Below are positions 15,726 to 32,687 of a DNA stretch of 32,810 nucleotides, piece after piece. Origin of the DNA: Xanthobacteraceae bacterium. Lineage in GTDB: Bacteria; Pseudomonadota; Alphaproteobacteria; Rhizobiales; Xanthobacteraceae. Positions within the stretch are counted from its first letter, which is position 1, and the number at the start of each line of letters is the position of its first letter. The notes under the pieces are model-generated. The model saw only the letters and a list, made by a program, of their open reading frames with translations. It searched no databases and had not been told where the DNA came from. Made by a program: the position numbers and the translations under genes. The DNA lies in the NCBI GenBank assembly GCA_019745775.1, contig JAIESR010000084.1, forward strand, positions 1 through 32,810, read 5' to 3'.

Positions 15726-15902
15726 GCAGTCACCATGCGCACGCTTTCGCCGAACGCGACACAAGCGCACACGGTGGTCAATCCAAGCTCCCTGCTTCCT
15801 CGAAGCGGACGCACGGCGCACCATGCCGGCCACGGCGTTGAGCGATTGTAGGCTATCGCGACTTTGCTCTAACATCGGCCCGAGGGAACCCGGGAGATAC
15901 GC

Positions 15903-16979: not shown

Positions 16980-17975
16980 ATGAAAAAAATCGCCCGTCGC
17001 ACATTTCTTACGATGGCCACGGGCACCGCGCTCGCGGCGACGTCGCGGCGCGCCGCCGCGCAGGCCTATCCGTTGCGGCCGGTACGCCTCATCGTTGCGT
17101 TCGTGCCTGGCGGCGCCACCGATACGCTGGCGCGGCAGATTTCCGAGGACCTCAAACAGGCGCTCGGCGAGACTGTCGTGATCGAGAATCGTCCGGGCGC
17201 GGGCGGCTATATCGCCTGGAGCCACGTGGCGTCGTCCGATCCGGACGGCCACACGCTGCTGCTCGCGGAGAATGCGCTCGGCATGAGCCAGGCGCTCTAT
17301 CGCGGCAAGGCGTCGACGTTCAATCCGTTGACGCAATACGATGCCGTCGCCGGCATCGCGACCTCGCCGTCGGCGCTGATCGTCTCGCCCTCCATTCCCG
17401 CCAACACGGTCGCCGAGCTCGTCGCCTATTCGAAGACCGTGAAGGGCAAGATGAACTACGCCAGCGCCGGTGTCGGCAGCGTCTCGCACCTCAATTTCGA
17501 GGTGTTCAAGGACGCGGTCGGCATGGAGGCGGTCCACATCCCCTACAAGGGCGGCGGCGCGGCGATCGCAGATGTCGTCGCCGGCCACGTGCCGATGACG
17601 ATCACGTCGGTGCAGGGCACCAAGGCACTGGTCGAGTCGGGCAAGCTCAAGGCGCTGGCGGTGACGAGCCTCGCGCGCTCGCCCGCGATGCCGCATGTGC
17701 CGACCATGCAGGAAGCGGGCGTGAAGAAGACCGCCGACGTCGAGCTGCGGTTCTGGTTCGGCATTTTCGGACCGAAAGGCCTGCCGGAGCCAGTGAAGGC
17801 CAAGCTCGACGGTGCGTTGAAGAAGGTCCTAGCCGATCCGAAGCTGCGCGAGCGGCTGGCTAACCTCGACATCACGCCGGAATACTCGTCCGGTTCGGCA
17901 TTGCGCGCGCGACTCGAGACCGAGATCAAGAGCTGGAGCAAATTCGTCGACGAAAAGGGCATCAAGCCCGAGTAG
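16980..17975 (+). CDS. TctC-like (Bug) solute receptor with Tat leader
   Basis: The 331-residue protein starts MKKIARRTFLTMATGTALAATSRRAAAQ, a twin-arginine leader (RRTFL). The TctC signatures follow: YPLRPVRLIVAFVPGGATDTLARQI, IENRPGAGGYIAW, VAELVAYSKTVKGKMNYASAGVGS and HIPYKGGGAAIADVVAGHVPM. A Gly-rich P-G-G-A-T-D loop and an E-N-R-P-G-A-G-G loop form the carboxylate cleft in this family. GGGAGGGAC precedes the ATG by about five bases. It lies directly after a receptor of the other Bug subclass and 59 bases before the exported amidohydrolase genes, so the receptor and hydrolases may act on the same periplasmic compound. Confidence 0.87.
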   Translation: MKKIARRTFLTMATGTALAATSRRAAAQAYPLRPVRLIVAFVPGGATDTLARQISEDLKQALGETVVIENRPGAGGYIAWSHVASSDPDGHTLLLAENALGMSQALYRGKASTFNPLTQYDAVAGIATSPSALIVSPSIPANTVAELVAYSKTVKGKMNYASAGVGSVSHLNFEVFKDAVGMEAVHIPYKGGGAAIADVVAGHVPMTITSVQGTKALVESGKLKALAVTSLARSPAMPHVPTMQEAGVKKTADVELRFWFGIFGPKGLPEPVKAKLDGALKKVLADPKLRERLANLDITPEYSSGSALRARLETEIKSWSKFVDEKGIKPE

Positions 17976-18034
17976 CGGCGCTGGCGCAGTACGCTTCGCC
18001 ATTGTGCCCTGCAACGCGACACGGGAGGACGACC

Positions 18035-19510
18035 ATGACGTATGACCGCAAGAGCCGGCACCGCATGAGCCGGCGCACGATGCTCCAGGGCGCGGCTGCG
18101 CTCGGCGCGACGCTCGCCGCCTCGCACAAAGCGTTTGCCCAGCAGGCGCCCACGCGCGGCGCCAAGGGCCCGGCCGCCAAGCTGCCGGCGCGCGGCGAGT
18201 TCGTAATCCGCGGCGCCAACGTGCTCACCATGGACCCGAAGATCGCCGATCTGGCGGCCGGCGACGTGCATGTGCGCGACGGTGCCATCGTCGCGGTCGC
18301 CGCCGACGTCGACGCGCCGAAGGCGCAGGTCGTCGACGGCGGCGGCATGATCTGCATGCCCGGCATCGTCGACACCCACTGGCACCTGTGGACGAGCCTG
18401 TTCCGGCCGTTCGTGCGCGCCGATCTTCCCGCGGTCGGCTATTTCCCGGTCAGCAACCGGCTCGGCCAGCTGATGACGCCGGAGGACAGCTACCGCGCCG
18501 TGATGCTCGGCCTCGCCGAGGCGCTGAGCGCGGGCTGCACCACCGTGCACAACTGGGCGCACAATGTTCGCAGCCCCGATCATGCCGACGGCGAGCTCGC
18601 CGCCATGCGCGACGCCGGCATCCGCGGCCGTTTTGCCTACGGCCCCGCGCAGGGCATGCCGGACGACCAGCCAATGGATTTCGACGGCATCGCGCGCGTG
18701 CAGAAGGATTGGATGCCGGGCGACGGCATGCTCACAATGGGCATTTGTTCGAGGAACGTGGGCGCCATGAGCATCGGCGGCGCTGCGCGCGGCGTGCTTA
18801 CTATCGAGCAGACCAAGCGCGACTGGGATGCCGCGCGCAAGCTCGGGCTGCCGATCACGCTGCACACCTCGGGCCCGAGCCCGATCACGCAGCTCGAGGA
18901 AGCCGGCCTCCTCGGCAACAACGACCTCCAGCTCATTCACCCGCTGCTCACGACCGCCGAGGAGCGCGCGATGCTGGCGAAGCGCGGGGTGAGTTATTCG
19001 ATCGCGCCCATCGGCGAGGCCGGGCGGCCGTCCAAGGTCGGCGTCATCCAGCTCGGCGAGATGCTCCAGGCCGGCGTCAAGGTGAGCATGTCGACGGACC
19101 ACACCACCAACTACAATTGCGATCCGTTCGTCGGCATGCGCGTCCTGTTCGCGGTGCATGGTCACCGCATCGGCAATGCTATCCCGCTGACGGTGAAGCG
19201 GCTGGTTCAGCTTGCCACGCTCGACGGCGCGGTCGACCTCGGCATCGCCGACAGATGCGGCTCGCTCACGCCCGGCAAGCGCGCCGACATCATCCTGATA
19301 CGCACCACCGACATCAACATGACGCCGGTCGGCGATCCCTACGAGGCGCTGGTCCATCGGGCGCAGCCCGGCAACGTTGACACCGTGATCGTCGATGGCC
19401 GCGTCTTGCGCCAGGGCGGCAAGTTCACGACGCTCGACCACGCCAAGGTGGTGAAGGACGCGCAGGAGGCGGCGGCGGCGCTGCGCACCAGGGCGAAGTG
19501 GCCGGTGTAA
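18035..19510 (+). CDS. Tat-exported TRZ/ATZ-type amidohydrolase (first of a tandem pair)
   Basis: The 491-residue protein opens with a twin-arginine leader (SRRTMLQGAAALGATLAAS, cleavage near AFA-QQ). After a linker it has the beta-sandwich start EFVIRGANVLTMDPK and a TIM barrel with H115 and H117 (DTHWHLW), H277 (ITLHTSG), H302 (LIHPLL) and D355 (STDHT). It ends with GSLTPGKRADIILI and a VIVDGRVLRQGG strand, the usual C-terminal half of the beta-sandwich. This is the aminohydrolase group that contains atrazine chlorohydrolase, cytosine and guanine deaminases. Export to the periplasm is unusual for the group. The ATG at 18035 is preceded by GGGAGG at nine bases. The partner 19558-21018 is a near-duplicate. 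The substrate is unknown. Confidence 0.87.
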   Translation: MTYDRKSRHRMSRRTMLQGAAALGATLAASHKAFAQQAPTRGAKGPAAKLPARGEFVIRGANVLTMDPKIADLAAGDVHVRDGAIVAVAADVDAPKAQVVDGGGMICMPGIVDTHWHLWTSLFRPFVRADLPAVGYFPVSNRLGQLMTPEDSYRAVMLGLAEALSAGCTTVHNWAHNVRSPDHADGELAAMRDAGIRGRFAYGPAQGMPDDQPMDFDGIARVQKDWMPGDGMLTMGICSRNVGAMSIGGAARGVLTIEQTKRDWDAARKLGLPITLHTSGPSPITQLEEAGLLGNNDLQLIHPLLTTAEERAMLAKRGVSYSIAPIGEAGRPSKVGVIQLGEMLQAGVKVSMSTDHTTNYNCDPFVGMRVLFAVHGHRIGNAIPLTVKRLVQLATLDGAVDLGIADRCGSLTPGKRADIILIRTTDINMTPVGDPYEALVHRAQPGNVDTVIVDGRVLRQGGKFTTLDHAKVVKDAQEAAAALRTRAKWPV

Positions 19511-19557
19511 GCTTTGACCTTAGCGACGGGAACAACAGAAGAAACGGAGGTTGGGCG

Positions 19558-21018
19558 ATGACGAACGATTATGTGAGTCGGCGCACGCTCCTGAAGGGCG
19601 CGAGCGTGTTGGGAGGCTGGGCGCTGACATCCGGCCCGCTGTTCGCGCAGCAGGCGCCCGTGCGTTCGGTCAGGAGCCCGGCCGCCAAGTTGCCGCCGCG
19701 CGGCGAGTTCATCATCCGTGGCGCCACTGTGCTGAGCATGGATGCCAAGCTCGGCGATTTCGCTGGCGGCGATGTGCATGTGCGTGACGGCGTCATTGTG
19801 GCGGTCGGTCCGAAGGTCGAAGCAGCCGGTGCACAAGTGGTCGACGGCAGCGGGACGATCTGCATGCCGGGCTTCATCGACACGCACTGGCACCTGTGGA
19901 CTAGCTTATTCCGGCCGTTCGTCCGGTCCGATGTTCCCGCGGTTGGCTACTTCCCGGTGAGCAACCGCCTGGGCCAGTTGATGGCGCCGGAGGACAGCTA
20001 CCGCAGCGTCGTGCTCGGCTGCTCCGAGGCGTTAAGCGCGGGCGTCACGGCCGTGCACAATTGGTGTCACAACACGCGCTCGCCGGAGCACGCCGATGCC
20101 GAGCTTGCCGCCATGCGTGATGCCGGCGTCCGCGGCCGCTTCGCCTACGGCCCGGCGCAGGGCATGCCTAACGAGCAGGCGATGGATTTCGCGGGCTTGG
20201 AGCGCGTCAAGCGCGACTGGATGCCGGGCGATGGCCTGCTCACGCTCGGCATCAATTCGCGCAACGTGGGCGGCAGCTCGATCAGCGCCCCCGGCATTCG
20301 CGGCGCGCTCACGATCGAACAGGCCAAGCGCGACTGGGACGGCGCCCGTGCGCTCGGGCTCCCGATCACCCTGCACACGTCAGGGCCGAGCCCGGTCACG
20401 GCCCTCGAGGAGGCCAAGCTGCTCGGCCCCGACGTGCAGCTCGTACATCCGATGCTCACCACGCCTGAGGAGCGCGCGATCATGAAGGCGCGCGGCGTCA
20501 GCTATTCGATATCGCCGGTCGGCGAGGCGCGCCGTTCGTCCAGTCTCGGTGTCATCCAGTTCGGCGAGCTGTTGGAGGCCGGCGTCAAGATCTCGCTGTC
20601 GACCGACCACACCACCAACTACAATTGTGACCCGTTCGGCAACATGCGCCTGCTGTATGCCCTGCATCAGTTCCGCATCGGCAGCAAGATCCCGCTGACG
20701 ATGAAGCGGCTGGTGCAGCTCGCGACCATCGACGGCGCGGTCGACCTCGGCATCGCCGACAAGGCCGGCTCGCTCACGCCCGGCAAGCGCGCCGACCTCA
20801 TCCTGGTCCGCACCACCGACCCGAATATCGCGCCGGTCAGCGATCCCTACGAGGCGCTGGTCTCGCATGCCCAGCCCGCCAACGTCGACACCGTGATCGT
20901 CGATGGCCGCATCCTGCGCCAGGGCGGCAGGTTCACGGCGCTCGACCACGCCAAGGTGGTGAAGGACGCGCAGGAGGCGGCGGCCGCGCTGCGTGCGAAG
21001 GCGAAGTGGCCGGCGTAA
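19558..21018 (+). CDS. Tat-exported TRZ/ATZ-type amidohydrolase (second of the pair)
   Basis: The 486-residue protein is collinear with the gene before it over its full length, with the same FDTHWHLWTSLFRPF-like core (DTHWH), LHTSG, VHPML, STDHTTNYNCDPF and GSLTPGKRADLILV motifs, so every metal ligand and the catalytic Asp are kept. The Tat motif SRRTLLKG is even closer to consensus than in the first copy. GGAGG lies eight bases before the ATG at 19558. Only 47 bases separate the genes, which suggests one transcript. Differences concentrate in the segments between the barrel strands, so the two may have split substrate ranges. It arose by tandem duplication. Confidence 0.87.
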   Translation: MTNDYVSRRTLLKGASVLGGWALTSGPLFAQQAPVRSVRSPAAKLPPRGEFIIRGATVLSMDAKLGDFAGGDVHVRDGVIVAVGPKVEAAGAQVVDGSGTICMPGFIDTHWHLWTSLFRPFVRSDVPAVGYFPVSNRLGQLMAPEDSYRSVVLGCSEALSAGVTAVHNWCHNTRSPEHADAELAAMRDAGVRGRFAYGPAQGMPNEQAMDFAGLERVKRDWMPGDGLLTLGINSRNVGGSSISAPGIRGALTIEQAKRDWDGARALGLPITLHTSGPSPVTALEEAKLLGPDVQLVHPMLTTPEERAIMKARGVSYSISPVGEARRSSSLGVIQFGELLEAGVKISLSTDHTTNYNCDPFGNMRLLYALHQFRIGSKIPLTMKRLVQLATIDGAVDLGIADKAGSLTPGKRADLILVRTTDPNIAPVSDPYEALVSHAQPANVDTVIVDGRILRQGGRFTALDHAKVVKDAQEAAAALRAKAKWPA

Positions 21019-21109
21019 GCGGGCAGCGGAGCATCGGCTATGGACTTGCGCTCCCCGAAAGCCGAACATAGCATTCTTCGACCATCTTCACCTGTCGTTG
21101 CAATAAATC

Positions 21110-21862
21110 ATGCGAGCCATCATTATCGGCGCGGGACGCGGCCGGCGGCTGATGCCGACTACAGCCGACACGCCGAAATGCTTTGCCGAGGTCCAGGGCA
21201 GGCGGCTGCTTGACTGGACGCTGAAAGCATTCGCGGAGAACGGCATCGACGATATCTGCTTCATCGGCGGCTACCGGATCGATCGCGTGCGCGCCGACTA
21301 TCCGCACTTCACGTTCCGCGAGAATGCTGACTGGGAGAACAACAACATCCTGCTGTCGCTCATGCATGCCGAGGATCTGATGGGCGAGCCGTTCATGTGC
21401 ACCTACTCGGACACGCTTTTCAACGCCGATGTGATCCGGCGGCTGCTTGCGAATCCCGCCGACATCGCGCTTTCGGTCGATACCGATTGGCTCGCACGCT
21501 ACGAGCACCGCACGGAGCATCCGCCGACCGACGCCGAGAAAGTGTCGGTCGAAAACGGGCTCGTCACGAGGATACATCGCGGTATCGAGCCGAGCCTGGC
21601 GCATGGTGAATACACCGGCGTTGCGAAATTCACGCCACGCGGCGCCGCCGCGCTGAAGGAGCACTATCATCGCTGCCGGCGCGCCTATGCCGGCAGGCCG
21701 TTTCGCGAAGCGGCCGTATTCGAAAGGGCCTATCTCATCCATCTGTTTCAGGACATGATCGAAGCCGGGACGAAAATGGCGCACGCCGACACCCCGGGCA
21801 ATTACATCGAAGTGGACACGCAGCAGGATTTCGAATTCGCACGAAACTCCTGGCGTGGATGA
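21110..21862 (+). CDS. Sugar/phosphocholine-type nucleotidyltransferase (LicC/PntC-like)
   Basis: The 250-residue protein has the nucleotidyltransferase N-terminus IIIGAGRGRRLMP and TPKCFAEV (Lys23), a W-ENNNILLSL segment where LicC-type enzymes have a T-N-N-I-x-S-L motif, YSDTLF with the metal-binding D101, and a C-terminal NYIEVDTQQDFEFA matching the E-x-D-T-x-x-D ending of the group. Such enzymes transfer CMP or NMP from CTP/NTP to phosphocholine, 2-aminoethylphosphonate or sugar phosphates. The start has no clear Shine-Dalgarno. The stop overlaps the next start (ATGA at 21859-21862), so the two are translationally coupled. The phosphonate-type transporter converging from the right makes a phosphonate substrate attractive but unproven. 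Confidence 0.75.
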   Translation: MRAIIIGAGRGRRLMPTTADTPKCFAEVQGRRLLDWTLKAFAENGIDDICFIGGYRIDRVRADYPHFTFRENADWENNNILLSLMHAEDLMGEPFMCTYSDTLFNADVIRRLLANPADIALSVDTDWLARYEHRTEHPPTDAEKVSVENGLVTRIHRGIEPSLAHGEYTGVAKFTPRGAAALKEHYHRCRRAYAGRPFREAAVFERAYLIHLFQDMIEAGTKMAHADTPGNYIEVDTQQDFEFARNSWRG

Positions 21863-22929
21863 CCATGGCAAGGCAGCTCTTTCCAGCTTCCATCGTCGGC
21901 TCGATGCCGCGATCGACTTTCGTACAGGATCTCATCAACGAGAAGCCGCCGCTGCCGCCGGAACGATACGAAGCCGAGATGGCCGCGGCGGTCCGCTACA
22001 TCGTGGCTTTGCAGGAGCACGCCGGGCTTGACGTCGTGTCCGATGGCGAGTGGCGTCGCAAATCATACATCGGTGTGATTGCCGAGCTCGCACATGGGTT
22101 CGAGCTTGGCTACAACCCTGCCGACAACCGTCCCTGGACAATCGTCACCGGCGAGCTCACGCCCAGGAATCCAGGCTTCATAGCCCGCGAGATCGCCTTC
22201 CTGAAGACGATCACCTCGCGCAAGATCAAGGCCACGCTGCCGGCGCCGGCCTTGCTCGGCGAGCGCCTCTGGGACGCCGTCAAATCGACCGGCGCCTATC
22301 CGCATCGCGATGATTTCGTGCGCGCCTGCGTGCCGATCCTGCGCCGGGAGGTCGAGCTCATCCGCGAGGCCGGTGCCGACATCATCCAGATCGACGATCC
22401 GCACCTGTGCCTGTTCGTCGATCCGGCGGTACGTTCCGCTTATCGACGGCCCGACGCTGCCGCCGATTTCGCCGTGGACATGGTCAATGCCGTCATCGAG
22501 GGCATCGAAGGCGTGACGCTCGCCGTCCACCTGTGCCGGCGAGCGGGCGCCCGTGTCCGCGGCGAAGCGCAGTTCCAAGGCGACTATGGATCGATCGTCC
22601 CGCAATTGAACAAGCTCAAGGCGCACCACCTCACGCTCGAATTCACGACCGGCGCGGCCGGCGACGTGACGGTGTTCAAGCAATTGCGCGAGGATTTTGA
22701 GATCGGCCTCGGCTGCGTGAGCGTCGAGCCTGGACAGGTCGACTCCGCCGAGACTATCGCCGCGCGTGTGCGGCGGGTGGCGCAATGCATTGCGCCCGAA
22801 CGGATCGTGCTCAATCCGGATTGCGGCTTTGCGCCGGGCTCGGGCGCGGCGGTCAGCATCGACGAGGCCTACCACAAGCTGCGCAACGAGGTGGCGGCGG
22901 CAAAGATGCTGCGGGACGAGTTTTCCTAG
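21859..22929 (+). CDS. Stand-alone MetE-type methyltransferase catalytic domain
   Basis: The 356-residue protein matches only the C-terminal, catalytic half of cobalamin-independent methionine synthase (about 750 residues in full). Seen are SIVGSMPRS, VVSDGEWRR (E64), ADIIQIDDPHL and the complete zinc set H224, C226 (VHLC), E261 (LEF) and C322 (NPDCGF). The N-terminal folate-binding duplicate domain is absent, as in MetE-like proteins that use other methyl donors or other thiols. ATG at 21859 overlaps the previous stop; a second ATG at 21865 is possible. The TAG at 22927-22929 shares a CTAG with the opposite-strand phnE stop. The true donor and acceptor are unknown, and homocysteine is only a family default. 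Confidence 0.8.
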   Translation: MTMARQLFPASIVGSMPRSTFVQDLINEKPPLPPERYEAEMAAAVRYIVALQEHAGLDVVSDGEWRRKSYIGVIAELAHGFELGYNPADNRPWTIVTGELTPRNPGFIAREIAFLKTITSRKIKATLPAPALLGERLWDAVKSTGAYPHRDDFVRACVPILRREVELIREAGADIIQIDDPHLCLFVDPAVRSAYRRPDAAADFAVDMVNAVIEGIEGVTLAVHLCRRAGARVRGEAQFQGDYGSIVPQLNKLKAHHLTLEFTTGAAGDVTVFKQLREDFEIGLGCVSVEPGQVDSAETIAARVRRVAQCIAPERIVLNPDCGFAPGSGAAVSIDEAYHKLRNEVAAAKMLRDEFS

Positions 22930-23825
22930 CGCGCCCCGCGCTTTTGCCGGTGATAAGTCTCGAGCAGCAATGCGCGATCCGTGCCCGCCTTGATCAGGCA
23001 GCTGCGGAGCATGTGCGAGATGAAGTCGATCAGCGCCACCACCATGATGATCATGATGATGATGAAGCAGACCTCATCCCACCGGTGGGCGCGGATGCGG
23101 TCCGAAAGGTGGAAGCCGATACCGCCCGCGCCCACGATCCCCAGGATAGTCGCGGAGCGCGTGTTCGATTCGAACATGTAGAGCACATTCGAGATCATGA
23201 TCGGCAGCACCTGTGGAACGATGCCGAAGCGCACCCGCTGCACGGCATTGGCTCCCGTGGCCTGGACGCCGTCGACCTGCTTGCGGTCGACATTCTCGAT
23301 CGCCTCCGCGAACAGCTTCGACAGAATGCCGATATCGGTCGTTGCAATCGCCAGCACGCCCGCCAGCGGTCCGAGCCCCACCGCGCGCACGTAGACGAGC
23401 GCCCAGACCAGCGCGTCGACGCCGCGCAGGAAGTCGAACGACCGTCGGATCGGAAATCGGAACAGCGGCAGCTTGACGACGTTGCGCGCGCCCAGGAAGC
23501 CCAGCGGGAAAGCGATGCAGGTGGCGATCAGGGTACCGAGAAACGCCATGCCGATGGTCTCCAGCATGGCCTTGACGAGGTCCCAGAACGCGTCGCCGGG
23601 CGTCGGCGGGAACAGGGCGGCCGCAATCTTGCCGAAGCGGTCGAGGCCGTTCCAGATACGTTCCGGCGAGGCGTCGAAGCGATAGAGGCAGAAGACGACG
23701 AACGCGACAACCCCGATCAGGATCGCTGCCAGGGTGGCGCGCTGCAGCGGCGTCTTCGCAAACGCGCGCGGGTAGCTTCGCCGAAGCTCCGCGATCCTGC
23801 CGGGATCGATGGCGCTCGCCTTCAT
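22926..23825 (-). CDS. phnE: Phosphonate-type ABC transporter permease (second PhnE)
   Basis: The 299-residue inner-membrane protein has a first helix AILIGVVAFVVFCLYRF and further membrane segments. It carries the permease cytoplasmic loop EAIENVDRKQVDGVQATGANAVQRVRFGIVPQVLP in pieces (EA, GV-ATGA, PQVLP), with NTRSATILGIVGAGGIGF after it, which is characteristic of PhnE. Start ATG at 23825 overlaps the stop of the other phnE by four bases (ATGA), so they are coupled and probably form a heterodimer. The long frame that continues upstream is a shadow. It is the last gene of phnC-phnD-phnE-phnE. Confidence 0.86.
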   Translation of the reverse strand: MKASAIDPGRIAELRRSYPRAFAKTPLQRATLAAILIGVVAFVVFCLYRFDASPERIWNGLDRFGKIAAALFPPTPGDAFWDLVKAMLETIGMAFLGTLIATCIAFPLGFLGARNVVKLPLFRFPIRRSFDFLRGVDALVWALVYVRAVGLGPLAGVLAIATTDIGILSKLFAEAIENVDRKQVDGVQATGANAVQRVRFGIVPQVLPIMISNVLYMFESNTRSATILGIVGAGGIGFHLSDRIRAHRWDEVCFIIIMIIMVVALIDFISHMLRSCLIKAGTDRALLLETYHRQKRGAR

Positions 23826-24694
23826 TGCAGGCTTTCCTTGCCGATGAGCCGGTGGCGCAGTTGCTCGCAGATCAGGTCGATCACCATGATGGTCGCAACC
23901 ACCATGAGCACGATCGCGCTGACGTCTTCGTAGTAGTTGAAGCTGATGGCGTGATAGAGTTCCTGTCCGATACCGCCGGCGCCGACGAAGCCGACGATCG
24001 CCGCCGAGCGGATGTTCAACTCGAGTCGCCACAGCGTGTAGGTCGTGAAGTTCGGTAGTACCTGGGGCAGCACGGCAAAACGGATAACCTCGAACCAATT
24101 GCCTCCGGCAGCGCGGACACCCTCGAGCTGGCGCTCGTCGATGTTCTCGTTGGCTTCCGCGTAGAGCTTCCCCATGGCGCCGATCGTGTGAATGGTGAGC
24201 GCGAGGAAGCCGGCAAACGGCCCGATGCCGAAGGCGACCACGAATATCAGTGCGTAGACGATCTCCGGCACGGTGCGCGCAATCTCCGCCAGCCGCCGGA
24301 ACACGAAATAGATGGCGAAGTTCCCGGCAAGATTGCGCGATGCGGGAAAGCAGAGAAGGAAACCGCCGAGCGAACCGAAGATCAGCGCCATCAGGGCGAT
24401 CAGGAGCGTGTCGAACAGCAGCCCTAGCCACTTGAAAAAGCCGTAGTACCAATAGGCGATGTCGCCCGGCAGCGTGTCGAGCCGGATCTCGGGAATGGTC
24501 TTGCCGATATATTCGCCGATCCTCGGCAGGCCGGCGATCAGCCGGTCGAGTCGGAAATTGCTTACGTCGGCGGCCGCATGGGAGATGATCACGAAGATCG
24601 CGCTGAATGCGAGAAGCTGGAGTCGCTGCCGCCGGCGTAGCCGGGCAAATTCCTCCTCGAAGCGCGCGACGGCGACGGAAGGCTGGCTAGGCAT
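23822..24694 (-). CDS. phnE: Phosphonate-type ABC transporter permease (first PhnE)
   Basis: The 290-residue protein has an Arg-rich cytoplasmic N-terminus (RLRRRQRLQ), a first helix LLAFSAIFVIISHAA, several more hydrophobic spans (LLFDTLLIALMALIFGSLGGFLL) and the ABC loop EANENIDERQLEGVRAAGGNW followed by LPQVLPNF. The NIRSAAIVGFVGAGGIGQEL segment is typical of PhnE. It pairs with the second PhnE downstream. The gap to phnD (65 bases) contains a tandem 17-bp repeat. The start at 24694 has only a weak Shine-Dalgarno sequence, so lower translation than phnD is plausible. Confidence 0.86.
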   Translation of the reverse strand: MPSQPSVAVARFEEEFARLRRRQRLQLLAFSAIFVIISHAAADVSNFRLDRLIAGLPRIGEYIGKTIPEIRLDTLPGDIAYWYYGFFKWLGLLFDTLLIALMALIFGSLGGFLLCFPASRNLAGNFAIYFVFRRLAEIARTVPEIVYALIFVVAFGIGPFAGFLALTIHTIGAMGKLYAEANENIDERQLEGVRAAGGNWFEVIRFAVLPQVLPNFTTYTLWRLELNIRSAAIVGFVGAGGIGQELYHAISFNYYEDVSAIVLMVVATIMVIDLICEQLRHRLIGKESLQ

Positions 24695-24720
24695 TTGCCG
24701 ACATTTTCAGAGTGCCACTT

Positions 24721-24754
24721 CTTGCCTGCACAACTCACTTGCCTGCACAACTCA
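24721..24754. repeat. Tandem 17-bp repeat between phnD and phnE
   Basis: Two identical copies of CTTGCCTGCACAACTCA lie end to end at 24721-24737 and 24738-24754, just after the phnD stop (24760, minus strand). It looks like a recent slippage duplication; no role is evident. Confidence 0.8.
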
Positions 24755-24759
24755 CGGGC

Positions 24760-25689
24760 CTAGCGGCTGCGCCGTTCCTTGGCGAGCTGGTTCCGCAGGT
24801 CGATGGCGATCTGGTAGACCTTGTGATCGACCTCGCGGTAGCCCTGCGACTCGCCGCGCGCGACTTCCCGGAAGACCGCAGGATTGTCCTTGTGCAAGTT
24901 GAGGAACATCGCCTTCAGGTCGGCTTTCATCTGCGCCGGTACGTCGGAGCGGATGGCGATGACCGGGTTCGGGATCAGCTCGGACACCCAGATGATGCGG
25001 ATGTCTTTGATATTGAGCACCTTGCGATCGAGCATCATGTGCAGGCCGCCGCGCGTATGCTTCTCGACGTCGTTGGTCCAGGTGACCGCGCCGTCATAGG
25101 CGCGATCGAGCACGCCGATGATGCTCTGCTCGTGGCCGCCGGAGAACACCACCTTGCCGAAGTGCTTCTCCGGGACGAGCCCCTTGTTGCGGAAACTGAC
25201 CAGCGGAAACAGGTAGCCGGACGACGAGTTCGGCTCGGCCCAGGCCCAGATCTTTCCCTTCAGGTCGTCGAGCGACTTGTAGGGACTGTCCGCGCGCACG
25301 AAGGCGACCGCATAGTATCCGATCGTTCCGTCAGGATTGGTCGGGACCACCAGCGGCTCGATGCCGCCCATGGTCTCGACATAGCCGGCGGCATATCCGC
25401 TCGCGCCCATGTCCATCACTTCGAGTTGCTTGGCGCCGATCGCCTGGATCACGCCGGCATATTCCGCCGACAGGAACAGCTCGAGCTCGACCCCGAGCTT
25501 CTCCTTCACATAGGCTGAAAAGCCCTTGTAGCGCGTCAGCGCCGCGGCCTGGGTTTCGACCGCCTGCACGCCGTAGCGGAATTTCGGGAACTGCTTGCGC
25601 CAATCCTGCGCCTGCGCCGGCTGGCCGAACAACAGGCCACCGCACAGCGCCGCGGCCAGGGTTAACGGGAACAACCTGTTAGCCTTCAT
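24760..25689 (-). CDS. phnD: Phosphonate-type periplasmic binding protein
   Basis: The 309-residue protein has a signal peptide (LTLAAALCGGLLFGQPAQA). The PhnD features follow: FRYGVQAVETQAAALTRYKGFSAYVKEKLG, SAEYAGVIQAIGAKQLEVMDMG, SPYKSLDDLKGKIWAWAEPNSSSGYLFP and KVVFSGGHEQSIIGVLDRAYDGAVTW, given in segments. The S-S-S-G-Y loop contacts the phosphonate group in known members, but relatives also bind phosphite or other oxyanions. AAGGAG stands eight bases before the ATG at 25689. It is second in the phnC-phnD-phnE-phnE operon. Confidence 0.88.
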   Translation of the reverse strand: MKANRLFPLTLAAALCGGLLFGQPAQAQDWRKQFPKFRYGVQAVETQAAALTRYKGFSAYVKEKLGVELELFLSAEYAGVIQAIGAKQLEVMDMGASGYAAGYVETMGGIEPLVVPTNPDGTIGYYAVAFVRADSPYKSLDDLKGKIWAWAEPNSSSGYLFPLVSFRNKGLVPEKHFGKVVFSGGHEQSIIGVLDRAYDGAVTWTNDVEKHTRGGLHMMLDRKVLNIKDIRIIWVSELIPNPVIAIRSDVPAQMKADLKAMFLNLHKDNPAVFREVARGESQGYREVDHKVYQIAIDLRNQLAKERRSR

Positions 25690-25710
25690 GGTGTGCTCCT
25701 TCGGGGGCCT

Positions 25711-26550
25711 TCAAGTCGGAATGCGATTTGACCCGCCGCTCGTCGAGCGAAGATCGATCGGCGGTATACCCGGCAAAGTCGTCGATGTGATGTATTCGTC
25801 AATTTCGTCGTCGCTGCCGTCCGCGACGTAGATCTCCCTGATCCGTTCATGATCGAGTACCTTGGGATGGTCGTCGAAGATCACCCGGCCGGTCCGCATG
25901 CCGATGATGCGGTCGCAATATGCGCGCGCCGTGTCGATCGTATGAAGATTGCAGATCACCGTGATGCCGTCGTCACGATTGATACTGCGCAAGATGTCCA
26001 TCACGCGCGCGGCGCTGCGCGGATCGAGCGAGGCGATTGGCTCGTCGGCAAGCAGGATTCTCGGCTCCTGCACCAGTGCCCGTGCGATCGCGACCCGTTG
26101 CTGCTGTCCGCCCGAGAGCTGGTCGGCGCGTTGCAGGACCGCCGATGTCATCTCGACCCGCTCCAGCGTGATGACCGCCAGCGCACGCTCCTCCGGCGTG
26201 AACAGCTTGAGCAGCGAGCGCGCCGTCGGCTGGTAGCTGAGCCGGCCCATCAGGACATTGGTGAGGACGTCGAGCCGCGGCACCAGGTTGAACTGCTGAA
26301 AGATCATCGCGCATTCGCGCCGCCAGAGGCGGAGCGCCCGCCCTTTCAAGGCGGCGACGTCGCGGCCGTCGTAGTCGATCCTGCCCGCGGTCGGCTCGGT
26401 GAGCCGATTGATCATGCGCAGCAGCGTCGACTTGCCTGCGCCCGAGCGACCGATGATCCCGAGCATCTGCCCGGTCGGTACCTCGAAAGACACGTTGTCG
26501 ACGGCAGTCAGCGTCCCGAAAGTCTTGGTCAGACCTTCAACCTTCAGCAT
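25711..26550 (-). CDS. phnC: Phosphonate-type ABC transporter ATP-binding protein
   Basis: The 279-residue protein has Walker [10 protein letters not shown] (about 34-42), Q-loop [12 protein letters not shown], signature [15 protein letters not shown], Walker B ILLADEP and an H-loop NLHTID with Asn before Leu-His as in Phn[20 protein letters not shown] is the usual N-terminus. Compared with typical PhnC (about 250-260) it has a C-terminal extension after the H-loop domain rich in Asp, Ser and Thr. Two ATGs abut at 26550 and 26553; the GAGGGGGG just before favours 26550. It is the first gene of the operon; an inverted repeat lies about 60 bases upstream. Confidence 0.87.
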
Positions 26551-26864
26551 CATCCCCCCTCGAGCACGCGGATGCCTGCGATGGGCTCCGGGCACGCCGA
26601 CCCTTGTCATTGGGCATCGTTATCCGGCCCAATTGCGCCCAACCGTCGAGTAAGCCATCTTTTGTCGTTGAAATAGCTATCGCCCGCGTCGAGCGCTTCG
26701 ATGCTCTGCGAAGTCGCCAGGGCCGTCAAGGTAGGACAGGCCATGCCTTCCAGCCTTGATGACGCAGGCTTGGCGGCTGGAAACGAATTTCAAGTTGCGA
26801 AACGCGCATGGCCCAAGCGACCCGGCGCGGTCGTGCCGGCCGGTTCGGGCGTCGTCGTCGCTTT
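26551..26864. other. Gene-free gap between phnC and minE with an inverted repeat
   Basis: No convincing gene lies here. The left part must hold the phnC promoter (minus strand). ATTGGGC at 26609-26615 and GCCCAAT at 26627-26633 form a perfect 7-bp inverted repeat with an 11-base spacer, a reasonable operator. A TTGTCAT next to it resembles one Pho-box half, but no second half fits. The right part follows the minE stop (26865) and shows no strong terminator. Confidence 0.45.
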
Positions 26865-27134
26865 CTACCGTATCCCGGCCAGGGCAACGGCCGAGTGTGG
26901 AACCTCGATGTCGATATCGAGCGTCGACACCTTGTCGCCGCGCTCCAGCTTCACCCGCACCTGGTCGTGGTCGACGGCGATGTGCTGCGCCACCACCGCC
27001 AGGATCTCGTCACGCAGCTTGCTCAACAGGTCGGACTGCCCGTGACTGGAACGCTCATGGGCCAGGAGGATTTGCAGCCGCTCGCGCGCGACCGGCGCAC
27101 TACCGCGGCGCCTGAAGAGTCCAAGAAAACTCAT
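26865..27134 (-). CDS. minE: Cell division topological specificity factor MinE
   Basis: This 89-residue protein starts [28 protein letters not shown], with the N-terminal amphipathic membrane-targeting stretch followed by the MinD-interacting [13 protein letters not shown] helix. The dimerisation domain [40 protein letters not shown] follows in pieces. MinE stimulates the MinD ATPase and drives pole-to-pole oscillation that keeps MinC away from midcell. Its ATG overlaps the minD stop (ATGA at 27131-27134), which couples their translation. It is last in minC-minD-minE. Confidence 0.96.
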
Positions 27135-27946
27135 GCCGCTCTCCGTCCGAACAGCTTGTCGAGCAGGCCTTTGCGGTCGGCTGGAACGATCATTGGCACG
27201 TCTTGCCCGCGCAGCCGGGCCGCGGCGTCGCGATAGGCCTGCGCGGCCGCGCTCTTGGGATCGTTGAGCGTCACCGGCGTTCCGACGTTAGACGCGCGCA
27301 GCACCTCCTCGCTCTCGGGGATGATCCCGAGCAGCGGCAGCGACAGGATGTCGAGCACGTCGTTGATGTTGAGCATCTCGCCGCGTGCGGCGCGGGCGGG
27401 ATCGTAGCGCGTGATCAGGATGTGCTTCTCGACGCGCTCGCCTTTCTCGGCTAGCTCGGTCTTGGAGTCGAGCAGGCCGATGATGCGGTCGGAATCGCGC
27501 ACCGACGATACCTCGGGATTGGTGACGATGATCGCCGTATCGGCGAACCGCATGGCGAGCGTCGCGCCGCGCTCGATGCCGGCGGGGCTGTCGCAGATTA
27601 CCCAGTCGAATTTCGTGCGCAGCTCCTTGATCACGCGCGCGACGCCGTCCTCGGTGAGGGCGTCCTTGTCGCGCGTCTGCGAGGCCGGCAACAGCGAAAG
27701 CGTGTCGATGCGCTTGTCGCGGATCAGCGCCTGCGGCAGCTTGGCGACGCCCTGCACGACATTGATCAGGTCGTAGACCACGCGCCGCTCGGCGCCCATC
27801 ACCAGGTCGAGGTTACGCAGGCCGACGTCGAAATCGACCACCACGACGCTCTGGCCGGTCGCCGCGAGCGCGGCGCCCAGCGCGGCGGTCGTGGTGGTTT
27901 TGCCAACGCCTCCCTTGCCGGACGTGACGACGATGACTTTGTTCAT
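27131..27946 (-). CDS. minD: Septum site-determining ATPase MinD
   Basis: The 271-residue ParA/MinD-family protein has the deviant Walker [12 protein letters not shown] (K11 and K16), [24 protein letters not shown] (Walker B) and the C-terminal membrane-targeting helix rich in Lys/Arg ([12 protein letters not shown]). It dimerises on ATP at the membrane and recruits MinC. AGGAGGT stands seven bases before the ATG at 27946, a strong ribosome binding site; the longer in-frame start is not needed. It lies 28 bases after minC and overlaps minE by four. Confidence 0.97.
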
Positions 27947-27974
27947 GCGAGTGACCTCCTCAATCCACGTTCGC

Positions 27975-28697
27975 TCAATCAAGCGGCGCGACTTTCAACA
28001 CACCATTCTCAAGCCATGACTGGATCGCGTGGGAGCGGATGGCGTCGTCCCAATCCTCGGCGGTCCGGTAGTAGCCGTTGATCGCGAGCAGCTCGGCCTC
28101 GTTCTTGCGGCAGAAGATGCGCGCGCGGCCGTCGCCCTTGGTGCCGGCCATGGCGCGTCCGCGCAGCGTTCCGTAGACGTGAATAGAGCCGCCGGCGACG
28201 ATCTCCGAGCCGGAGGCGACCGATCCGAGCACCGTGACGTCGCCGTTCGGGAAATAGATCGCCTGGCCGGAGCGCACCGGGCATTCGATGAGCAGCGACG
28301 TAGGCTCGTCCGTCTGGACGGGAGCGGCCGGGGCGGGCGCTTCTCTCTTCGGGGCAGTCGTCTCGGCTGCCTGCGGCCGTTCCGACGGGCGTCCGCTGGT
28401 CAGAAGCGGCGGCAGCGACGGATCGAGCTGCGCAGGATCGGCGCCTTCAATGCCGACCACGCGGATGTTGCGTTCGCTGAGCTGGCCGAGGAGGTGCCGG
28501 ATGCCGGGCTGGCCTAGTTTGACGGCGCCGAGATCGAGCACGACCGGCCGGTCGGCAAAGAAGCCCGCCGAGGTCTTGATCCAGTTGTCGAGCTGGGCGA
28601 GCCAGTCGATGATCGGTGCCTGCGGCGCGAGGACAAAGGCGATGTAGGAGCGAATGCAGAAGCGGATCGAATTGTTCGCGTCGCTTGCGCTGGTCAC
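27975..28697 (-). CDS. minC: Septum site-determining protein MinC
   Basis: The 240-residue FtsZ inhibitor has an N-terminal domain (FVLAPQAPIIDWLAQLDNWIKTSAGFFADRPVVLDLG in pieces) and a Pro/Ala/Thr-rich linker (about 105-130). Its C-terminal beta-helix includes RSGQAIYFPNGDVTVLGSVASGSEIVAGGSIHVYGTLRGRAMAG, given in parts, with the R-S-G-Q and G-S-I-H-V-Y-G-x-L-R-G-R-A motifs that bind MinD. The start is GTG at 28697. A CtrA-type box lies 57 bases upstream, so the operon is probably under cell-cycle control. Confidence 0.95.
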   Translation of the reverse strand: MTSASDANNSIRFCIRSYIAFVLAPQAPIIDWLAQLDNWIKTSAGFFADRPVVLDLGAVKLGQPGIRHLLGQLSERNIRVVGIEGADPAQLDPSLPPLLTSGRPSERPQAAETTAPKREAPAPAAPVQTDEPTSLLIECPVRSGQAIYFPNGDVTVLGSVASGSEIVAGGSIHVYGTLRGRAMAGTKGDGRARIFCRKNEAELLAINGYYRTAEDWDDAIRSHAIQSWLENGVLKVAPLD

Positions 28698-28753
28698 GGC
28701 GGCCCCCGAAACGTCTTGTGAAGGCGATTGACCGGAGCATTGGGCTGAAATGG

Positions 28754-28768
28754 TTAACGCGGAGTTAA
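28754..28768 (-). promoter_or_regulatory. CtrA binding site upstream of minCDE
   Basis: TTAA-N7-TTAA is perfect here, and on the minus strand (the minC direction) it reads TTAACTCCGCGTTAACCAT, containing the extended half-site TTAACCAT of alphaproteobacterial CtrA. It ends 57 bases before the minC GTG. CtrA control of minCDE has been reported in Sinorhizobium; binding here is inferred from the motif and its place. Confidence 0.75.
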
Positions 28769-28815
28769 AACGAAACTATTCGCAAAGATGATTGGCGCGT
28801 GATGGTAGTATTCTG

Positions 28816-28835
28816 CTGCGAGATTACAGTCGCAG
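28816..28835. repeat. Small inverted repeat upstream of the min operon
   Basis: CTGCGA (28816-28821) and TCGCAG (28830-28835) flank eight bases, in the space between minC and the livF remnant. It could be an operator, but nothing else supports this. The rest of this 216-base gap shows no gene. Confidence 0.35.
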
Positions 28836-28913
28836 GTTAGGAAGGGCGGCCTACGGTATTCCCGTACAACTGAAATATCCGGAGAATTACTGGAGAGCAA
28901 CGCAACCGTGGCG

Positions 28914-29009
28914 CTAGTACAAGCCGAGATGCTGCGTGAGATCGAGACCCTCCCGCTCGATATCGGCCGGCGTGGACGTGAGCGCTACACGGCCGCTGTC
29001 GAGATCGCA
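28914..29009 (-). pseudogene. Displaced 3' end of a livF-like gene
   Basis: On the minus strand this reads in frame to TAG at 28914-28916 and encodes about 30 residues: LDSGRVAL, TPADIERE, LDLTQHLG, Tyr-stop. The C-terminus of the intact LivF at 31918 is LNSGRVAV, TPADIERE, LDLTQHLG, Tyr-stop. Alignment stays good at the DNA level through about 29009, close to the stop of the ModA-like gene at 29030. The rest of the gene is missing. The copies have the same orientation about 3.0 kb apart and differ at several bases, so this is not a very recent duplication. Confidence 0.85.
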
Positions 29010-29029
29010 CGCTTAGGAAATAGTCGCGC

Positions 29030-29758
29030 TCACTCATGCTCCATTCCTTGCGAGGTCATGACGGCGACGGCATTGGGTCCGGTGAGAAATCGGATCAGGT
29101 TTTGAGCCGCCAGCCGCACCTTGGAATTGCTGCTCACGCCTGCTGCAAAGACAACGGAGGACTGCAACTCAATCGGGAGCGGCCCGACGAGCTGAACGCC
29201 GGACGTCGTCAGAATCTGACTTGTGTTGACCATTCCGAGCTCAACATCGCCCTTGGCTACCAGTTCTGAAACAATATCGACGTCAGGTCGCGTGACCTTG
29301 GATTTGATGGCGTCGTAGATGCCAATGCGTTCGAGCATGTTCTGTACATGGAGGCCGCCGCCGATTTTGAGATAGGCGATCGAATCTGCGTTGAGAAGCG
29401 CGCGCTTGAACGCCTCGACGGATCCAATATCCGGTTTTGCCGCGCCGGCGCGCACTTCGATGCCGATGGGAGCGCTGCCAAACGCTGTGCGTGTTTCAGC
29501 AACGATCTCGCCGCTCTCGATCAACTCGTCCACGAGGCTGGACGTGCCGATGAAGACGTCAAACGGTTCGCCCGCATTCATCCACTTGGCGTACGTTGTA
29601 GGCAAATCCGAGATGACATCCAGTTGGTAGCCGGTGGCGAGTTCGAACTGCGCTCCAATCTTCCACAATACTGTTGCGAACACCCATGGTCCCCACACTT
29701 TGATTTCCGCGAGTTCAGGGGCCTGAGTGACGGGAAGTACATTCCGCCGTATTTTCAT
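29030..29758 (-). CDS. ModA-like substrate-binding domain protein without an obvious signal peptide
   Basis: The 242-residue protein resembles the SBP_bac_11/ModA class (molybdate-type binding fold): EIKVWGPWVFATVLWKIGAQFELATGYQLD, GEPFDVFIGTSSLVDELIESGEI, FGSAPIGIEVRAGAAKPDIGSVEAFKRALLNADSIAY and the late FLTGPNAVAVMTSQGME. The first residues (MKIRRNVLPVTQAPELAE) are not a signal peptide, and a longer in-frame start at 29869 adds polar sequence and overlaps the receptor gene. Either export is lost, the true start is not visible, or it works as a cytoplasmic sensor. GC content is visibly lower than in min and liv genes. It follows the TctC-like receptor by 52 bases on the same strand. Confidence 0.72.
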   Translation of the reverse strand: MKIRRNVLPVTQAPELAEIKVWGPWVFATVLWKIGAQFELATGYQLDVISDLPTTYAKWMNAGEPFDVFIGTSSLVDELIESGEIVAETRTAFGSAPIGIEVRAGAAKPDIGSVEAFKRALLNADSIAYLKIGGGLHVQNMLERIGIYDAIKSKVTRPDVDIVSELVAKGDVELGMVNTSQILTTSGVQLVGPLPIELQSSVVFAAGVSSNSKVRLAAQNLIRFLTGPNAVAVMTSQGMEHE

Positions 29759-29810
29759 GACGGCTTGTGCCCTAGGCGCAAACTGCAAGTGTTGGCGGTT
29801 TCCAAGAAAG

Positions 29811-30800
29811 TTACTCCCCCTTGATGTTGCCGGCCCGGATGATCGGCCACCATCTCTCGATCTCGGCATCTTGAAAGGCTCGCAGCGCTTCCGGCGTTTG
29901 CTGATCGCGCGGGAAAACGTCCTGCCCTAGCTCGGAAAGGCGCCGGCGCACCGGCAAATCGGCCAAGGTGGTAACGACAGCAGCATTCAGTCTGGCGGCT
30001 ATGTTTTTGGGGGTTGCCTTGGGCACAAAGATCGCTTGCCAATTCAAGGCGTGGAGCCCCGATAGTCCCGCTTCGGCGACTGTCGGGATATTGGGCGCGG
30101 CGGCCATCCGGCTTTTCGATGTAACGGCATAAGCCTTGATGGTGCCGGCAGCAACGTGGGCCAAAGAATTGGCAGCTGTAGCGATCATGAAGTCAATCTG
30201 ACCGGCCACCACAGCCTGCATGGCGGGGCCCTGGCCACCGCGATAGGGCACGAACCTGAAGCGCGTGCCTGTTTCCCTTTGGAAAAGGAGCCCGGCCACT
30301 GTCCCAACACCGCCTGCACCAGTGGTCCCTTGCGTGGCTTCCGGGTTTGCCCTCAGCCAGGCAACAAGTTCTTTCAGATCGTTGGCCGGGATGCCTTTCT
30401 TCGCGACGATTATCAAAGGGTCACTGCAAACCAGCGAAACGGGCTGGAAATCCCTTTGCAGGTCATATGGCAGCGCAAACATGGGGCCGTTCAGAACGTG
30501 TGTGGCCCAGTTGCCGAGGACCGCGGTGTAGCCGTCAGGAACTGCCCGCGCGACACGACCAACAGCTATCGTGCCGGAAGCGCCAGCCACGTTTTCGACA
30601 ATGACGGGTTGACCAAGCGGTCCGCGCATACCCTCCGCGAGGATGCGTCCGATCGTATCCGCTGGGCCGCCCGCGCCAAACGGGACCACCATCGTGACCG
30701 GCCGTGCGGGATAGCTCTGCGCAACGGCAGTGTGTGTCAATGCAGGGGCGACGGTGGCAGCTCCGGCAAGCCTCAGAAATTTCCGACGGACAAGAATCAT
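29811..30800 (-). CDS. TctC-like (Bug) solute receptor with Tat-like leader
   Basis: The 329-residue protein starts MILVRRKFLRLAGAATVAPALTHTAVAQ, with RRKFLRL as a twin-arginine motif. The TctC motifs follow: YPARPVTMVVPFGAGGPADTIGRIL, VENVAGASGTIAVGRVARA, TGAGGVGTVAGLLFQRETG and FVPYRGGQGPAMQAVVAGQIDFM. ENVAGASG departs from the common ENRPGAGG in the second ligand loop. AGGA lies six bases before the ATG at 30800. It is divergent from the LysR gene across 126 bases, the classic layout for LysR control of a neighbouring operon. The next gene on its strand is the ModA-like protein. Confidence 0.86.
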   Translation of the reverse strand: MILVRRKFLRLAGAATVAPALTHTAVAQSYPARPVTMVVPFGAGGPADTIGRILAEGMRGPLGQPVIVENVAGASGTIAVGRVARAVPDGYTAVLGNWATHVLNGPMFALPYDLQRDFQPVSLVCSDPLIIVAKKGIPANDLKELVAWLRANPEATQGTTGAGGVGTVAGLLFQRETGTRFRFVPYRGGQGPAMQAVVAGQIDFMIATAANSLAHVAAGTIKAYAVTSKSRMAAAPNIPTVAEAGLSGLHALNWQAIFVPKATPKNIAARLNAAVVTTLADLPVRRRLSELGQDVFPRDQQTPEALRAFQDAEIERWWPIIRAGNIKGE

Positions 30801-30926
30801 GGTCCTGCTCCATCTGATGGATCGCGGCGGCGCCGCGCCGGGACAACGTCATTTCCATCGAGGCACTACCGGAGAAATCGATATAAGCGTACTCTGATTT
30901 TTTCTCTGACCCTATAAGAGGCCATT
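30801..30926. promoter_or_regulatory. Divergent promoter region of the LysR gene and the TctC-like receptor
   Basis: These 126 bases separate start codons on opposite strands. The LysR-proximal 60 bases are AT-rich, unlike the rest of the window, and hold two TATAAG hexamers (near 30882 and 30914), compatible with overlapping promoters. A clean T-N11-A LysR box could not be chosen by eye. Autoregulation of LysR and control of the receptor from here are inferred from layout. Confidence 0.5.
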
Positions 30927-31895
30927 ATGACATCTGTCACGATGGAATGGGAAAGCCGCCTCGGACGCCGGCTTCGGGTGCGCGACCTCTACATCCTCTC
31001 GGCCGTAGTAAAGGCGGGCGGCATGGCCAAGGCGGCACGTCAGCTTGCTATGACGCAGCCGGCAGTGTCAGCGGCAATCGCCAATCTCGAGCACATGCTT
31101 GGCGTTCGCCTGCTCGACCGCAGCCCGCGCGGTATCGAGCCAACGATCTACGCGGACGCGATACTCAAACGAAGCATCGCTGTGTTCGACGAATTGAAAC
31201 AGGGCGTCAAGGACGTCGAAGCCCTCGCAGACCCATCGACGGGCGAACTGAGGATTGGTTGTCCGGTTAACACCACAGTGGTTCCGCTATTTATCGAGCG
31301 GTTTTCTAAGCGATATCCGCGCGTCGGTGTTCATGTCTATGACGTGCCAAGCCCCGTGATCAAGAATCCCGGACTGCGCGATCGAACATACGATCTGGTC
31401 ATTGCGCGTGTAGGTTCTCCACTTTCGAAGGATGCGATCGACAACGACTTGAACGTAGAGCGTCTTTTCGATGATCCCCTGGTGATCGCGGCCGGTCCGC
31501 GCAGCGCGTGGGCGCGCCGCCGTGCAATCAAGATTGAAGAACTGTCTGCTGAGCCTTGGATTCTGACTCACTCCGACGCCTGGAATTACATCGGGGTGGC
31601 GGAGGCCTTCGCAGCAAGGGGTTTTGAGATGCCGAAGGTGAGTGTGTTCGGTTCCTCCGCACATCTCCTGAATCACTTCGTTGCCAATGGCTCATATATC
31701 ACTGCAATGCCTAAGTCAGTTGCAAGGTTCTGCTTGCTAAAGATATTGCCAGTCAAATTGCCCGTTCGGCCCTGGCCGGTTGCGATTGCGACCCTGAAAA
31801 AGCGCACCTTGAGCCCGGTGGTCGAGCGCTTTATTGAATGTGCCCGCGAGGTAGCGAAATCGATGGGCGGAACCTCACGTACGCAAAGATCTTGA
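30927..31895 (+). CDS. LysR-family transcriptional regulator
   Basis: The 322-residue regulator has an N-terminal winged helix-turn-helix: LRVRDLYILSAVVKAGGMAKAARQLAMTQPAVSAAIANLEHMLGVRLLDRSPRGIEPT (about 15-72, in pieces). The ligand-binding domain follows, starting GELRIGCPVNTTVVPLFIERFSKRYP. AGAGG sits about eight bases before the ATG at 30927; ATG six codons later (MEWESR) is an alternative. It is divergent from the TctC-like receptor and likely senses the compound that receptor delivers. GC content is lower than in the flanking genes. Its stop is 22 bases from the livF stop on the other strand. Confidence 0.9.
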   Translation: MTSVTMEWESRLGRRLRVRDLYILSAVVKAGGMAKAARQLAMTQPAVSAAIANLEHMLGVRLLDRSPRGIEPTIYADAILKRSIAVFDELKQGVKDVEALADPSTGELRIGCPVNTTVVPLFIERFSKRYPRVGVHVYDVPSPVIKNPGLRDRTYDLVIARVGSPLSKDAIDNDLNVERLFDDPLVIAAGPRSAWARRRAIKIEELSAEPWILTHSDAWNYIGVAEAFAARGFEMPKVSVFGSSAHLLNHFVANGSYITAMPKSVARFCLLKILPVKLPVRPWPVAIATLKKRTLSPVVERFIECAREVAKSMGGTSRTQRS

Positions 31896-31917
31896 GCGAA
31901 GCCAGCCGGCTGGCGTC

Positions 31918-32640
31918 CTAGTACACGCCGAGATGTTGCGTGAGGTCGAGGGCTTCCCGCTCGATATCGGCGGGCGTCGAGACCACGGCGACGCGGCCGG
32001 AGTTGAGGATCGCGATGTCGTCGGCGATGTCGAGCACCAGCCGCGGGTTCTGCTCGACCAGGACGATCGAGAGGCCGCTCTCCTTGAGCTTGCGGATGGT
32101 CGCCATCACGTCGGCGACGATCTGCGGCGCCAGCCCCTCCGAGGGCTCGTCCATCAGCAGCACGCGCGGATTGGCCATCAGCGCGCGGCCGATCGCGAGC
32201 ATCTGCTGCTCGCCGCCGGAGAGATGCGCGGCGTATTGATGCCTGCGCTCGGCAAGCCGCGGGAACATGCCGAACACGGTGTCGGTGGTCCACGGCGCGT
32301 GCCGGCTGCCGGGGCCGGGCGGCCGCGCGGCGACGATCAGGTTCTCGCGCACGGTAAGGCTCTTGAAGATGCGCCGGCCCTGCGGCACCAGCGCGATGCC
32401 GCGCGCCGCGATCGCTTCCGGCGGCAGCCGCGTGATGTCGGTGCCGAAGACTTCGACGCGGCCGCCGCGTGCGGGCAGGAGGCCGACCACGACATTCATG
32501 CAGGTCGACTTGCCGGCGCCGTTCCTTCCGAGCAGGCCGAGCAGGCGGCCCTCGCCGAGCGCGAACGACACGTTCTCGAGGATGTGACTGTCCCCGTAGA
32601 AGGCGTGGATATCGCGGAGGTTTAAAGCTGTAGTGGTCAT
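31918..32640 (-). CDS. livF: Branched-chain amino acid-type ABC transporter ATP-binding protein LivF
   Basis: The 240-residue ATPase has Walker A GRNGAGKST (38-46), Q-loop VPQGRRIFKSLTVRENL, signature LSGGEQQMLAIGRAL, Walker B VLLMDEPSEGLAP and H-loop VEQN. LRDIHAFYGDSHILENVSF is the standard LivF start. LivF and LivG are the two ATPases of HAAT-type importers for branched-chain amino acids, amides or other small solutes. The ATG at 32640 gives the normal length; ATGs at 32652 and 32664 are in frame but add residues. livG and the permeases would be expected to the right, beyond the window. The 3' end matches the remnant at 28914-29009. Confidence 0.92.
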   Translation of the reverse strand: MTTTALNLRDIHAFYGDSHILENVSFALGEGRLLGLLGRNGAGKSTCMNVVVGLLPARGGRVEVFGTDITRLPPEAIAARGIALVPQGRRIFKSLTVRENLIVAARPPGPGSRHAPWTTDTVFGMFPRLAERRHQYAAHLSGGEQQMLAIGRALMANPRVLLMDEPSEGLAPQIVADVMATIRKLKESGLSIVLVEQNPRLVLDIADDIAILNSGRVAVVSTPADIEREALDLTQHLGVY

Positions 32641-32687
32641 GGCTGCCACCATTCGAGTCGCCATGGTGCCGCGTGCACCGGCCGGCT

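Follow-up and report, generated by a model that had tools for sequence, protein, structure and literature searches.

A low-GC LysR-TctC-SBP block between the intact livF end and a second, decayed livF tail in a Xanthobacteraceae genome

Described systems and the material compared

In genomic islands that occupy tRNA genes (Islander), a regenerated gene end and a displaced fragment are reported to mark the two ends (PMC4383910); the target of SGI1 is given as the 3' end of trmE (PMC8409611). At T6SS effector/Rhs loci, new DNA enters the 3' part of a gene and the old 3' end is shifted downstream, with no integrase involved, in the process reported in PMC5361080. The locus reported here resembles the tRNA-gene islands and SGI1 in having a regenerated gene end plus a displaced fragment, and is unlike them in that no integrase was found in the open reading frames (ORFs) scanned, the ends are 79% identical, and further rearrangements lie adjacent. 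The 3' displacement proposed for it is analogous to that ascribed to homology-facilitated illegitimate recombination (HFIR) at T6SS effector/Rhs loci (PMC5361080); here, in contrast, the transporter ATPase stays full-length, the cargo is metabolic in kind, and a donor was not found among the loci searched. A literature search on livF as a genomic-island integration site returned nothing. The structure is unusual, yet it is no new kind of element.

The window, that is, the whole stretch of DNA analysed, is the entire contig C85 (32,810 bases) of a MAG-like genome of 6.3 Mb in 147 contigs, with a contamination figure of 2.72%; the arrangement is known from this one MAG-like assembly only. The family sample comprised 391 genomes and the genus sample eight, the own genome included in the latter. 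The window holds 126 listed ORFs, 48 of which were scanned with Pfam and 10 with PHROGs. Features are collected in Table 1.

Table 1 Features of the window. Positions count from the first base of the contig; G and C numbers denote genomes and contigs.
Feature	Position	Strand	Basis
Gene X, TctC-like, convergent with livF in congeners	15903..16949	+	match position by livF; collinearity beyond
Relocated genus DNA: TctC, two amidohydrolases, phosphonate-type ABC cluster (21109-26550)	16980..26610	.	G002:C165, G006:C15, G006:C23
minE, minD, minC and upstream DNA, relocated	26850..28893	-	G006:C4, G004:C152; MinE PF03776
livF 3' remnant, decayed, about 30 codons and stop	28914..29009	-	79% repeat; codon analysis
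SBP_bac_11 (ModA-like) solute-binding protein	29030..29869	-	PF13531 E 4.9e-29; best non-self match 55% aa
TctC-type receptor, twin-arginine-like start (by eye)	29811..30800	-	PF03401 E 7.3e-55
LysR regulator, divergent from TctC	30927..31895	+	PF00126 and PF03466
livF, intact, branched-chain amino-acid-type ABC ATPase	31918..32664	-	Pfam ABC_tran; 88-89% aa to G004/G006 livF

Two livF tails and the block between them

The initial annotation had proposed that the 3' end of livF is present twice in the same orientation, and alignment agrees: positions 28914-29003 and 31918-32007 form a direct repeat of 79% identity over 90 nt (71 of 90 bases identical). The "several bases" said to separate the copies amount to 19 of the 90. 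The remnant also proved to be in frame with the C-terminal motif and stop attributed to it, reading LDSGRVALTSTPADIEREGLDLTQHLGLY before an in-frame TAG, against LNSGRVAVVSTPADIEREALDLTQHLGVY before the stop of the intact tail. BLASTN of the remnant against its own genome (E up to 1) gave five matches: itself, the intact livF tail (E 6.6e-16, 103 nt, 79%), and three short ones of 22-29 bases (E 0.007 to 0.57), with no third comparable copy of the tail. The remnant DNA was without match in the seven congeners at E 0.001; in a local search it aligns to the livF tail of G006 at 76%. Residues in the spacers adjoining the remnant or the intact livF were not above chance.

The intact livF shares 86% of its DNA sequence with that of G006 and 85% with that of G004. 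The contig stops 146 bases upstream (5') of the gene, so that the remaining operon, livG included, lies outside the window; by eye, the stretch at the contig end (32680-32810) looks like a palindromic repeat. A foreign origin of the intact tail was considered and is not detectable: of eight 90-base bins, the C-terminal one ranks lowest or second lowest in the own-G006, own-G004 and G006-G004 comparisons and in the middle against G274, which shows no clear anomaly.

Between the tails lies a 2.9-kb block (29010-31917), which is lower in GC, as had been noted: 0.583 against a mean of 0.652 (sd 0.021) across 20 chosen stretches of this genome, cut into 360 overlapping windows of 2.9 kb, or 3.3 sd below the sample, with 1.1% of the sampled windows equally low. 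The ModA-like gene, TctC-like receptor and divergent LysR gene read there from the sequence all exceed their Pfam cut-offs, "ModA-like" being the general SBP_bac_11 family. The SBP_bac_11 gene overlaps the TctC gene; the block ends 22 bases past the LysR stop on one side, where the LysR and livF stops are 22 bases apart, and about 20 bases past the SBP stop on the other. The SBP gene possibly has an inner Met (MKIRR...) as its start, shows no obvious signal peptide by eye, and stands as a lone binding domain with no adjoining ABC permease.

A LysR gene with a divergent TctC receptor gene makes up what we take to be a Bug/TctC-type module. For comparison, 29 SBP and 29 non-self LysR loci with short flanks were drawn from longer match lists; 17 of these 29 LysR loci share the layout of the block, with a divergent TctC gene within a flank of about 1.5 kb, whereas the block differs in the overlap of its SBP_bac_11 gene with the TctC gene. 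The closest non-self LysR relative (58% aa, on G006:C1) has a divergent TctC gene of its own; L237 carries TctC then SBP on one strand without overlap, and in L166 and L175 LysR is divergent from SBP. Against the congeners the block gave single-gene matches only, among them TctC, at 72% in both G004:C211 and G002:C452. With divergent LysR-TctC pairs in more than half of the LysR loci compared and the best non-self relatives at 58% (LysR) and 55% (SBP), the cargo is ordinary in kind and distant in sequence, and it probably works as an ordinary LysR-regulated solute-receptor module. A plasmid origin was also considered and dropped: 23 of 72,556 plasmid records match, and in the best 15 of the 23 the match takes up no more than roughly 7% of the query and falls in the TctC region. 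These matches were uninformative.

Gene X, minCDE and the livF neighbourhood in relatives

Matches to livF at E 1e-100 or better occur in 53 of the 391 family genomes and, within the genus, in the own genome, G006 and G004. In each of the two congeners that have a close livF, gene X adjoins it; the alignments of livF and X are separated by 3 bp in G006 and by 79 bp in G004, and past X both genomes carry homologs of the left part of the window. The ancestor therefore probably had X beside livF; in the window the two are about 15 kb apart. A possible residue of a livF tail, or of the G004 spacer, by X, in the first 41 bases past the X stop, was rejected, since random window positions match as well in 34% (G004) and 33% (G006) of 2000 draws. 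TctC-like paralogs of X lie near one another at 13147-16949, and in G006 they stand in tandem.

The 15-kb livF-X interval is a mosaic, mostly of ordinary genus DNA. Positions 17065-17977 match G002:C165 (72%), 18161-21018 match G006:C15 (80-82%), 21109-26550 (the phosphonate-type ABC cluster) match G006:C23 (78-80%), and 26850-28768 match the minCDE region of G006:C4 and G004:C152 (75-78%). The segments between 16.9 and 28.9 kb are spread over three other G006 contigs (C15, C23 and C4); about 12 kb of the interval, minCDE included, is the genus's own DNA, and about five synteny breaks were counted within the 15 kb. As a yardstick, two of the 20 sampled stretches, of 20 kb each, were compared with G006: one is collinear throughout, the other over about 14 kb, its collinearity ending near a G006 contig end and giving way to matches on other contigs. 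An amidohydrolase homolog (73%) and minCDE occur together on G004:C152, about 5.6 kb apart and in another order; some of the 12 kb may therefore already have lain close together. The neighbourhood of minE-minD-minC (26868-28697) differs from that in both G004 and G006. The two tandem amidohydrolase genes (18002-21018) match one and the same G006 locus, C15:1835-3259, and hence look like a tandem duplication, which is not seen in G006.

The ordinary G004 match stops upstream of minC at 28768, and a gapped local alignment of 28769-28913 to G004 runs on to about 28893; none of 1000 shuffles was as good, and 3 of 1000 random pieces of the window scored as high. The same piece gave nothing above chance against G006 (27% of 500 shuffles equal). 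The stop of the remnant (28914) is about 20 bases past the minC-upstream DNA alignable to G004, which places the remnant at the end of that relocated DNA and not beside X. The single 3-kb entry of the initial annotation is thus too narrow, X lying 15 kb from livF and the remnant ending the relocated minC-upstream DNA; the larger 15-kb rearrangement goes beyond what was first noted.

Downstream sequence (2 bp to 10 kb) was covered for 75 livF loci, from 80 retained out of 103 matches, less five distant ones. X follows livF in two, the G006 and G004 records. Neither minC nor LysR lies behind livF in any of the 75 over that distance, so that the livF-minC adjacency predicted for related genomes did not appear; the same loci show no LysR-TctC-SBP donor behind livF, and no second tail copy matched in the livF loci that were searched for one. 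Among the 29 SBP and 29 non-self LysR loci listed, with their short flanks, none joins a livF anchor to the cargo. In two of the 75 (L096 and L098; livF 64% and 62%), livF is followed at once by an SBP_bac_11 gene and, at more distance, by a TctC-like gene, the TctC assignment being confirmed by Pfam for L098 only; in view of these loci, a donor with SBP and TctC behind livF would be conceivable. As the source of the cargo itself L096 and L098 were set aside and kept as a lead: their SBP and TctC-like genes are 26-30% identical overall (SBP to block SBP 26-27%), the arrangement differs, and no LysR was seen in either locus. Their SBP_bac_11 genes (L096:980-1705, L098:1630-2343) lie on the livF strand, as if members of the liv operon, and start almost at the domain start, as the block SBP may.

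Origin of the arrangement

The relationships of the remnant were examined against 59 distinct tails, the own one among them, from 94 loci whose livF match has 64% identity or more and extends to the C-terminus. The nearest tails are the own (71 of 90), that of G274 (67) and that of G006 (66). When these 59 are placed in one tree together with the remnant, the latter groups with the own, G006 and G004 tails (support 99), and the maximum-likelihood (ML) tree joins it to the own tail. Four placements were compared by AU on 15 of the 60 tails (sister to own, 0.66; outside own, G006 and G004, 0.58; with G006, 0.11; own with G006, 0.12); the test rejects none of them, and the remnant-own sister relation is not significant. 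The raw differences between remnant and own tail fall 5, 3 and 11 on the three codon positions and had suggested strong purifying selection on the remnant. That suggestion was abandoned on polarising the 19 sites, which put nine on the remnant branch (4, 1, 4), two more likely there (third positions), six on the own branch (1, 2, 3) and two undecided; from this pattern, the remnant changes look like the neutral drift of a dead copy. In a simulation of 12 random changes, about 79% of the copies were without internal stop. Given the position in the genus's livF clade and the drift-like changes, these sequences lend no support to a distant donor of the tail, while a congener donor is compatible with them; the tail from a different lineage that had been suggested is not needed.

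We favour, at a rough probability of 0.45, an old insertion that brought foreign cargo to the livF 3' end without an integrase, most likely anchored by homology on one side and closed by an illegitimate join on the other. The homology of the livF tail would have anchored the incoming DNA, with illegitimate joining at its other end; the LysR gene and the divergent TctC-SBP pair would have been put directly behind an intact end of livF, and the 96 or so bases that had ended the gene before shoved to the far side of the cargo, there to decay. The junction next to livF would have broken at least twice, the X-livF interval also gaining about 12 kb of genus DNA with minCDE. We infer the order of events, the donor and the joining mechanism from this layout, which fits the geometry of HFIR, where foreign DNA is bounded by a homologous junction on one side and an illegitimate one on the other. 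Of the earlier proposal that incoming DNA entered the 3' end of the gene, the core is retained: the tail repeat and the low GC fit it, as does the lack of the block by livF in the two informative congeners. The single 3-kb entry is given up, and no sign of site-specific integration was seen in the ORFs scanned.

The homology-anchored insertion is favoured over a duplication within the own lineage, although the data hardly separate the two. Such a duplication, of the livF tail or of all of livF (tandem, or as a long target duplication), with the cargo between the copies and the spare decayed to 30 codons, would require no donor tail and is only slightly less probable than the favoured reading: GATATCGAGCGGGA is common to the remnant and the own tail and absent from both G006 and G004, the ML tree unites these two tails, the changes on the remnant (4, 1, 4 and the two likely third-position ones) fit neutral drift, and decay of a duplicate accounts equally well for the differences between the tails. 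It asks, however, for a duplication and an insertion-deletion; no trace of a second livF body was seen besides the intact gene, and the AU comparison leaves the union with the own tail without significance. An assembly chimera, in which the contig joins DNA from different genomes or places, is suggested by the MAG-like genome with its many contigs and its contamination, and by the density of synteny breaks. We consider it unlikely, as no exact match shared by the tails exceeds 17 bases, too short for the usual assembler k, the other segments of the mosaic have a GC of 0.632-0.684 and genus affinity, and minC is single-copy in the own genome.

The layout of intact gene, cargo and displaced tail (28914-29009, on the far side) is also what would be expected of an integrative element, whole or reduced by deletion, that has the 3' end of livF as its target and brings a replacement end, like islands at tRNA genes or trmE. 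This origin is very unlikely. Pfam recognised no recombinase in 48 window ORFs (the three block genes and 45 others) and PHROGs none in 10, in line, within that scope, with the integrase and transposase reported missing at the outset; the window gave no tRNA and no Rfam match. The block is 3 kb only, with three metabolic-type genes, the tails are only 79% identical, none of the 75 livF loci has LysR or minC behind livF within the 2 bp to 10 kb covered, and no second tail copy follows livF in the loci searched for one. Broader than the homology-anchored insertion, and improbable, is a reading of the livF 3' boundary as a recurrent integrase-free entry point, where DNA would anchor in livF tails, regenerate the gene end and stack cargo as effector arrays do at T6SS/Rhs loci, but at a housekeeping-type transporter gene.

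If the homology-anchored insertion is the true history, the locus exemplifies how genes from outside can become established behind an ordinary gene with no mobile-element machinery and leave that gene unharmed. Otherwise, it is a well-preserved rearrangement scar, of use mainly as a caution that a repeated gene tail, where no recombinase accompanies it, is not necessarily the sign of an integrative element.
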